A DNA stretch of 58,997 bases from the NCBI GenBank assembly GCA_016223045.1, contig JACRPT010000148.1:1-58997 (forward strand), read 5' to 3'. Below, one piece after another: positions 38,438-41,400 of this stretch (positions within the stretch are counted from its first letter, which is position 1; every line of letters begins with the position of its first letter). Origin of the DNA: Candidatus Eiseniibacteriota bacterium. Lineage in GTDB: Bacteria > Eisenbacteria > RBG-16-71-46. The translations under genes and the position numbers were made by a program. The notes beneath the pieces are model-generated. The model worked only from the letters and a program-made list of their open reading frames with translations. It was not told the DNA's origin and did no database searches.

Positions 38438-41400
38438 TCACGACTTCACCAGGTGACGGATCACGGTATGGAGGATGCCGCCGTTGCGGTAGTAGTCCAC
38501 GTCCACCGGGGTGTCGAGCCGCGCCACCGCCTGGAAGCTGAGCGTCGAGCCGTCCTCGCGCCGCGCCTGCACGGTGACCTTCTGCCGCGGCTCGAGCTGG
38601 CCCGTGAGGCCCAGCACATCGAACTCCTCACGGCCCGTGAGTCCCAGGCTCTCGGCGGTCTGGCCGTTCTCGTACTGGAGCGGCAGCACCCCCATGCCGA
38701 CCAGGTTCGAGCGGTGGATGCGCTCGTAGCTCTCGGCCAGCACGGCGCGCACTCCGAGCAACATCGCGCCCTTGGCCGCCCAGTCGCGCGACGAGCCGGT
38801 GCCGTACTCCCTGCCCGCCAGCACCACGAGCGGCGTGCCTTCCTGCCGGTAGCGCTCGGCCGCGTCGAACACGCTGGTCTGCGCGCCGCTCGGGTGGTGC
38901 ACGGTGACGTTCCCCTCCGAGCCCGGCACCAGCAGGTTCTTGAGCCGGATGTTCGCGAAGGTGCCCCGCACCATCACCAGGTCGTTGCCGCGGCGCGCAC
39001 CGTAGGAGTTGAAGTCCTTCTTCTCCACCCCGCGCGACTTGAGCCAGCGGCCCGCGGGGCTCTCCTCGGCGATGTCTCCGGCCGGCGAGATGTGGTCGGT
39101 CGTCACCAAGTCGCCCACCATGACGAGCACGCGTGCGCCGCGGATGTCAGACAGCGGCTGCGGCGCGAGCGCGAAGCTCTCGAAGAACGGCGGGTGGTGG
39201 ATGTAGGTGGAGTCGGGATCCCAAGCGTAGAGTTCGCCCTCGCCCACGCGGATCGCGTTCCACTTCGGGTTGCCGGTGAATACGTTCGCGTAGGTCTTCT
39301 CGAACATCTCGGGCCTGAGCGAGCTGGCCACGGCTTCGCGGATCTCCTGCTGCGTGGGCCAGATCTCGCGCAGGAAGACCGGGCGGCCGTCCCTACCGGC
39401 GCCCAGCGGCTCGCTCTCGAAGTCCACGTCCACCGTGCCCGCGAGCGCGTAGGCCACCACCAGCGGCGGCGAGGCCAGGTAGTTGGCGCGCGTGGACGGG
39501 CTGATGCGGCCTTCGAAGTTGCGGTTGCCGGAAAGCACCGCGGCCGCCACCAGCTTGCCTTCGCCGATAGCCTTCGCCACCGGCTCGGGCAGCGGGCCGG
39601 AGTTGCCGATGCAATTGTGCACCGCGACCGTGCCCGCCACGAATGCATGCACGCCGTCCACCGCCAGGTCGAAGACCTCGCGCGTGCCGGCGGGCCGCCG
39701 GTCCACGACCTTCAGCGCCAGGGTGGGCAGCGTCGGGGATTCCTTCTCGACGCAGTAGCGTTTCGCCGCGGCCTCGCCGCGCGCCTCGAGCGGCGCGAAC
39801 CATCCCCGGGCGCCGATCTCGCGGAACTGCTCGACGGGCGATGGGAAGCCGCAGGAGTCCCGGTGCAAGGGCTGGAATCTCCTCACGCCCGGCGCGGGCA
39901 GCCGCGAGAAACGGTCGTGGCCCTCGAGCAGCGAATAATGCGGGAACACGGCCGTCTCGCGCTCGAGCAGCTCGGTCGCCGCCGCCTGGCGCGCCTGTGC
40001 GAAGGTCAGCTCCTGACGCTCGCGGTGTCGCTTGGTCAGGCTCTCCGACATCCACAGGCGCTGCTCGTGGATTCTGCCTACCGTGCGCCAGTAGACCGCG
40101 GCCGCCGTGGCGCGCAGAGCCTTGTCCACGGAGTAGCGGTAGCCGACCCGCTCGATGAACGAGAGCCCGTCCGGCATTACCAGCCGCACTTCCGTCCGGG
40201 GCTCACCGTCCGCCGCAGGGGGGTAGGTCGAGGCAGCGCGGCGGATCGCATACTCGTACAGCTTGAATCCGTCCGTCCTCACCCCGCAGCGGCCAATCAG
40301 GCGAACGATCTCACCCATCAGCTCACGAAGCCGGGGAACGTGCTCCATGCGCGCGACCTGGGAATACGCCGGAGGCGTCAGGATTGCCTCCTCCTCGCGG
40401 TCGCTCCGGCGATGGAGCGTGGGTGCCCAGCCGTCGGCCCCGAAGAGCCCGCCGAGGAACTCGCGCACGACCGCCGTAGGGCAGCGAGGATCATGCACGA
40501 ACGATGGCAGCGTCGCCGGCTGGCGGATGCGCCGGCCGACGCGCACCCCCGGTAGCGCGCGGATGGCGATGGTCAGCTCCTTCGGCAGCGCGATGCTCCA
40601 CTTGCGATCGTCGTACCGCGTGCCGGCCGGGCGCTTGCCCGTGAGGCGCTCGATATCGTCCAGGACTGCCTCGCGGTCAACGGCCTGGCCGACGTTCATC
40701 CGCCCCTGGCCGGCGACACTGATCGAGCCATCGCTGAGCAGATGACCGACCAGGCGCGCGAACGCCAGCGTGCGGAGACGCTGCTCCGGCGCGTCCAGCG
40801 CGAAGGTCCATCCGCCCGCATGCAGGGTGTATCCCCTCTCGTCGGCGCCGGGCTCGTCGAGCGGCACCTCCAGACCGACCACGACCCGGTCGCGCTCCGG
40901 CTCCAGCGCGTCGGCCCGCACCCAGCGCCCATCCGCGGTCAGGATCTCGTGGTCGGGCGTGCACACGAGCGTGCGCCCGTCCTGGAGCACGATCGAGACG
41001 CAGTCCCTCAGGCCCCGGGCCATCTTCTCCGTCTGGGTCGCCAGCGCGAGCCTGCGTTGCGCGTCGGGCCCGAGGAGCCGGGCATCGCCGGTATCCGGCA
41101 GATCGTCGATCCGCCGCGCCGTGCCATCCGACATGAGCACCGGGGTGCCCGACGCGATACAGCTGGTACACCCGTATCCCACCAGGTGGAAACCGACGGC
41201 CTCAAGGCTGGTCAGCACGCCGGCCGCGCGCAGGTACTCGGTCACCACCTGGGAGCCGGGCGCGAGGCTGGTCTTGACGTACGGCTTCGGCTTGAGCCCG
41301 CGCGCCGCCGCCTTCTTCGCCAGCAGCCCGGCCGCCATCATCACCGAGGGGTTCGAGGTATTGGTGCACGAGGTGATCGCCGCGATCACCACCGCGCCGT

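Follow-up and report, generated by a model that had tools for sequence, protein, structure and literature searches.

The acnA gene of this Eisenbacteria genome is interrupted by an insertion that is very probably a full-length class 1 intein homing into the most conserved motif of the gene. The window, the whole stretch of 58,997 nucleotides analysed here, carries the precursor gene and its parts as follows:

38438..42724 (-), acnA precursor gene, 1428 aa from a GTG start; two-stretch match to TIGR01341 and NF006757, with PF00330 and PF00694
42697 (-), alternative acnA start, an ATG at codon 10
41162..42724 (-), N-extein, with GYGCTS at its end; AcnA model match to residue ~529, and translation
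41168..41170 (-), Cys-3 of the N-extein, cluster ligand and possible disulfide partner of Cys1; invariant in 41 members
39614..41161 (-), intein of 516 aa, from Cys1 to Asn516; intein HMMs, fold, and 48 same-site loci
40949..40960 (-), block B, TPDH; Thr and His invariant in 41 members
40727..40768 (-), LAGLIDADG motif 1, LAFARLVGHLLSDG; catalytic Asp in 40 of 41
40430..40459 (-), LAGLIDADG motif 2, FLGGLFGADG; catalytic Asp in 39 of 41
39614..39676 (-), blocks F and G, VFDLAVDGVHAFVAGTVAVHN; TIGR01443 above cut-off, Asp498 and Asn516 invariant
39611..39613 (-), Cys+1, predicted splicing nucleophile and cluster ligand; invariant
38438..39613 (-), C-extein including the stop codon, with CIGNSGPL at its start; second AcnA model stretch, PF00694 swivel domain

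In profile searches, the open reading frame at 38438-42724 (-) scored 1351 bits against the AcnA model TIGR01341 (cut-off 945), in two stretches with a break at about residue 529; a second AcnA model, NF006757, was also far above its cut-off and likewise matched in two stretches. The intein span, 39614-41161 (-), is exactly 516 codons long and closes with His-Asn, after which the host sequence resumes at CIGNSGPL. It is the sole AcnA-type gene found in the genome of the window, and it carries the intein, so that an inactive intein should deprive the cell of this enzyme. Two more distant members of the aconitase family were seen: a 682-aa protein in the window (16941-18989, (-)), with its swivel (LeuD-like) part first and a LeuC/homoaconitase-like part second, which scores below all equivalog cut-offs, and a 640-aa paralogue on another contig (L007:1585-3507 (-), G000:C137), seemingly without the usual cluster cysteine motifs. 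The neighbours of acnA are a gene for a ferritin-like protein on one side (37918-38385, (-)) and [NiFe] hydrogenase genes with a maturation protease on the other (42780-45961, (-)).

The cluster ligands of aconitases are the cysteine of SCTNTSNP and both cysteines of GYGC-x-x-C. The intein splits the last two, so one becomes Cys-3 and the other Cys+1, which, from established aconitase structures, we take to be the equivalents of Cys421 and Cys424 of mitochondrial aconitase, both cluster ligands. The original prediction had rightly identified Cys+1 as a [4Fe-4S] ligand, as homology to aconitase and IRP1 indicates, which would leave the precursor without the mature cluster site; it overlooked that Cys-3 is a ligand as well. 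The iron or redox coupling that it proposed is chemically plausible, and more strongly so than was stated there; that splicing is in fact coupled in this way found no support. Splicing would begin with attack of Cys1 on the carbonyl of Ser-1, followed by transfer of the N-extein to Cys+1; Asn516 would then cyclise and the exteins would ligate, restoring GYGCTSCIGN, both cysteines of which would go on to bind the [4Fe-4S] cluster. The unspliced precursor, with its cluster site incomplete, should have no activity. We infer that the intein splices, that its nuclease cuts DNA and that the precursor is indeed inactive. The LAGLIDADG domain would copy the intein into empty acnA alleles, which would account for the use of one exact site across many phyla.

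Identification as an intein draws on motifs, profiles and fold. The window intein has all class 1 residues: Cys1, the block B TxxH, the block F Asp, the His-Asn end and Cys+1, together with both LAGLIDADG motifs and their catalytic Asp (LLSDG and FGADG). Across 41 aligned AcnA inteins, Cys-3, Cys1, the Thr and His of TPDH, the block F Asp, the terminal Asn and Cys+1 are invariant, Cys1 and Cys+1 being themselves part of the criterion by which the members were collected; the penultimate His is found in 40 of the 41, and both endonuclease catalytic Asp residues are kept in 39. The expectation that intein models would recognise the insertion was borne out in part: TIGR01443, which describes the C-terminal splicing region, reached 15.9 bits (cut-off 15.6), while PF14890 stayed just below its cut-off (33.7 against 35.8) and TIGR01445 below its own (19.3 against 24.5). 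In the PDB, its relatives by sequence are the inteins of Mtu RecA and Ssp DnaB and others like them. An AlphaFold model built with 41 homologues as input has a pLDDT of 90 and a pTM of 0.90; in fold comparison with the PDB it is matched best by the TliVMA intein (E 1e-14), PI-SceI and PI-PfuI. The mini-inteins Ssp DnaB and Mtu RecA fit its HINT fold to ~1.5 Å over ~100 residues, and the endonuclease fold is matched by PI-SceI, PI-PfuI and I-Tsp061I. The predicted structure decides the identity of the insertion, which is thereby confirmed as a class 1 intein with a LAGLIDADG endonuclease. The original prediction of such an intein between GYGCTS and CIGNSGPL holds to the base, and its 516 residues, full set of splicing residues and two LAGLIDADG motifs are upheld by the translation and the 41-member alignment; its residue numbering, 513-1028, counts from the ATG at codon 10 and becomes 522-1037 from the GTG.

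The same junction recurs well beyond this genome. A degenerate pattern, HN|CIGNxGP, run over GTDB genomes matched 50 stretches. In 48 of them an acnA gene has an intein terminus at this site, a lower bound since variants lacking HN|CIGN, such as the SN|CIGN of L062, escape the pattern. Chance does not account for the junction in the window: 0 junction matches are expected in shuffled windows, and there are these 48 homologous loci elsewhere. The other two (L050 and L051) were chance pattern matches and were rejected as AcnA inteins. Complete AcnA inteins are mostly 513-524 aa long, with variants of 476 and 443 aa, and each of 11 host genomes tested has one CIGN site only. Bacterial hosts comprise Gammaproteobacteria and other Proteobacteria, Ktedonobacteria and other Chloroflexi, Eisenbacteria and Omnitrophota, with one Pyrinomonadaceae, one Polyangiaceae and one Gemmataceae; archaeal hosts are Nitrososphaerales and one Marsarchaeota. 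All host genomes found are metagenome-assembled. The assembly of the window has 164 contigs, of which the window is one, and mixed alleles disturb the assemblies of some relatives (G003 and G015); the intein could in principle have been wrongly joined to acnA in assembly or binning. Such an artefact is refuted by the same in-frame junctions in dozens of independent assemblies, among them one recorded as a complete chromosome (L040) and four full-length relatives at 69-77% identity; we regard it as next to impossible. Viral contigs gave 0 junction matches and only distant inteins, for instance in a DnaE-like host, and phage and plasmid records gave no relative.

Within the window's own family, the acnA site is occupied in 9 of 13 readable genomes (G000, G005, G008, G012, G018, G014, G007, G003 and G015) and empty in four (G001, G002, G006 and G017); readable members outside this family have an empty site. 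Over 1500 bases, one Eisenbacteria contig (L019) shows no difference from the locus of a genome in the family, which points to an Eisenbacterium as the probable organism of the window. Three other families have an occupied site in 5 of 10, 8 of 118 and 9 of 34 of the genomes with the motif, counted as CAY-AAY before it.

The occupied sites in the window's family are in several states. G003 carries a natural 175-aa mini-intein at the site (L090, G003:C22), with its splicing residues kept and no endonuclease; contigs C161 and C22 of this assembly have a common 141-base end, and the sample may therefore contain a second allele. G015 joins an empty-site left half, across an N gap, to an intein-plus right half, which suggests that both alleles were in the sample, and in G014 the contig stops inside the intein. 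L062 (G005) has Ser in place of the penultimate His (VSN|CIGN). L064 (G007:C375) has a frameshift and lacks both the right junction and the last ~35 residues of the intein; this locus is either a real pseudogene or an assembly chimera. At L068 / L032 an empty-site acnA is linked across an N gap to an intein-plus right junction, a sign that alleles with and without the intein may coexist in one population.

With L064 lacking its right junction and two further relatives (L023 and L033) having lost the endonuclease catalytic residues, decay is seen among some relatives, and the window intein could in principle be a non-splicing remnant that makes acnA a pseudogene here. That is highly improbable: all its splicing residues are intact, the frame is open through exteins and intein, its substitutions relative to L019 are mostly synonymous (omega 0.24), and a second AcnA-type gene was not found in the genome. 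More generally, omega values of about 0.06-0.27 indicate purifying selection on both the splicing and the endonuclease parts. Patchy occupancy of the site and a conserved endonuclease, read from the sequences, are features of a homing element that is active and recurrent.

Comparison of intein and extein divergence points the same way as to how the element reached its hosts. Within four multi-member clades the intein/extein path ratio is 1.5-2.1, the intein evolving faster, and it is 0.9 in Ktedonobacteria; between two archaeal AcnA lineages it falls to 0.30, the inteins being much closer than the exteins, and it is 0.43-0.64 when the main archaeal clade is compared with most of the bacterial groups. 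Since inteins diverge faster than exteins in most clades and much less between clades, the simplest reading is that the AcnA intein spread laterally, long after the AcnA lineages had diverged. Topology offers weak evidence for transfer, whether the archaeal exteins are held as one clade (AU test, p 0.058) or the Eisenbacteria inteins are grouped with L053 (p 0.58), and the claim of transfer is therefore founded on how deep the divergence runs and how patchy the occupancy is, rather than on the shape of the trees. A transfer within Eisenbacteria involving L053 was dropped, since holding the family together was not rejected (AU p 0.58).

A second reading of the same intein is that the host keeps it as a redox- or iron-gated device, in which a Cys-3/Cys1 or Cys1/Cys+1 disulfide, or metal bound at Cys-3-x-x-Cys1, would stall splicing when conditions are oxidising or iron is out of balance, leaving aconitase as an inactive folded precursor. 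The AcnA intein has the cysteine pairs for both known traps, Cys-3/Cys1 and Cys1/Cys+1, and these three cysteines are all present in the 41 members. The spacing of Cys-3-x-x-Cys1 also locally copies the native C-x-x-C ligand pair. Precedents for disulfide traps exist: the Pab MoaA intein, in an oxygen-labile enzyme, is reported to be trapped by a Cys-3/Cys1 disulfide and the Pab PolII intein by Cys1/Cys+1 (PMC3922620; PMC10663303), and oxidation of Mtu SufB leads to a Cys1-Cys+1 disulfide (PMC8529194). The predicted precursor retains an aconitase-like core around the inserted intein, with AcnA and human IRP1 as best PDB matches (~3 Å), at a pTM of 0.60 that leaves domain orientation uncertain; an unspliced yet folded apo-precursor is therefore plausible on this model. 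The mini-intein, which keeps its splicing residues while the endonuclease is absent, is also compatible with retention by the host. Against this, Cys-3 and Cys+1 are imposed by the aconitase motif, and their conservation is thus no evidence for regulation; the splicing cysteines are also dictated by class 1 chemistry. C54 and C67, the other conserved HINT cysteines, were rejected as special redox residues since a viral DnaE-type intein (L103) shares them. Patchiness in sister genomes and conservation of the endonuclease are what a selfish element would show. A host-kept gate is accordingly unlikely, and slightly less likely still is its fuller form, in which Cys-3-x-x-Cys1 would mimic the native ligand pair and a disulfide, or premature metal at Cys1, would reversibly block splicing after translation, storing a folded, protected aconitase precursor in many phyla. 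Nothing in the sequences shows selection for regulation. The homing intein that restores aconitase on splicing is the reading we retain.

Conserved active-site motifs are the usual sites of inteins (PMC7765530). We found no description of an intein in aconitase at this site in the open literature, searched partly by title and abstract, although it may still be catalogued, and no intein-containing AcnA model of NCBIfam is among the matches of the acnA open reading frame. The original prediction named as a point against it an identical insertion already described in many genomes: the insertion is indeed present in many, and a description was not found. AcnA as an intein host, and this site, thus appear to be undescribed in the searchable literature. 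The finding adds a central TCA-cycle enzyme, cut at its cluster-binding motif, to the described intein hosts that we found, and shows that bacteria and archaea share one insertion site. Because Cys-3, Cys1 and Cys+1 are all present and two of the three are cluster ligands, the AcnA intein is a clean native case in which to ask whether inteins of Fe-S proteins are redox switches or only selfish DNA. One bacterial family contains full-length, mini-intein, endonuclease-dead, mixed and empty alleles, which makes it a good system for following the homing cycle.

Other inteins are present in the same genome. FtsH (G000:C164, locus L114) has two, both in AAA motifs, and the full set outside acnA is as follows:

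G000:C164:52434-52985 (-), FtsH mini-intein, 184 aa, with Ser1 (GVGA/S...HN/SRVRDLF), L114
G000:C164:50904-52388 (-), FtsH LAGLIDADG intein, 495 aa (NAP/C...HN/CIVFVDEIDA), L114
G000:C7:13409-14764 (-), DnaE intein, 452 aa, L113
G000:C69:6083-6619 (+), RecA mini-intein, 179 aa, L115

The genome therefore holds at least five inteins in four genes.

Among known systems, the Pyrococcus abyssi MoaA intein resembles that of AcnA in having an N-extein Cys-3 near Cys1 and an oxygen-labile host, and its disulfide can block splicing (PMC3922620, PMC10663303); the hosts differ, Cys-3 and Cys+1 are both cluster ligands in AcnA, and the disulfide known from MoaA would be a possible one in AcnA. The Mycobacterium tuberculosis SufB intein is likewise class 1, with Cys1 and Cys+1, in an Fe-S-linked host (PMC8529194); SufB assembles clusters, whereas AcnA is a metabolic enzyme that binds one through Cys+1, and a redox response like that of SufB would be hypothetical for AcnA. 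By sequence and fold, the closest solved splicing domains are those of the Mtu RecA (PI-MtuI) and Ssp DnaB inteins, which have other hosts and other sites and are ~25-30% identical over the splicing domain. The VMA inteins with a LAGLIDADG endonuclease (TliVMA and PI-SceI), at 12-14% identity and with a different host and DNA target, have the same two-domain architecture as the AcnA intein and are its best overall fold matches.
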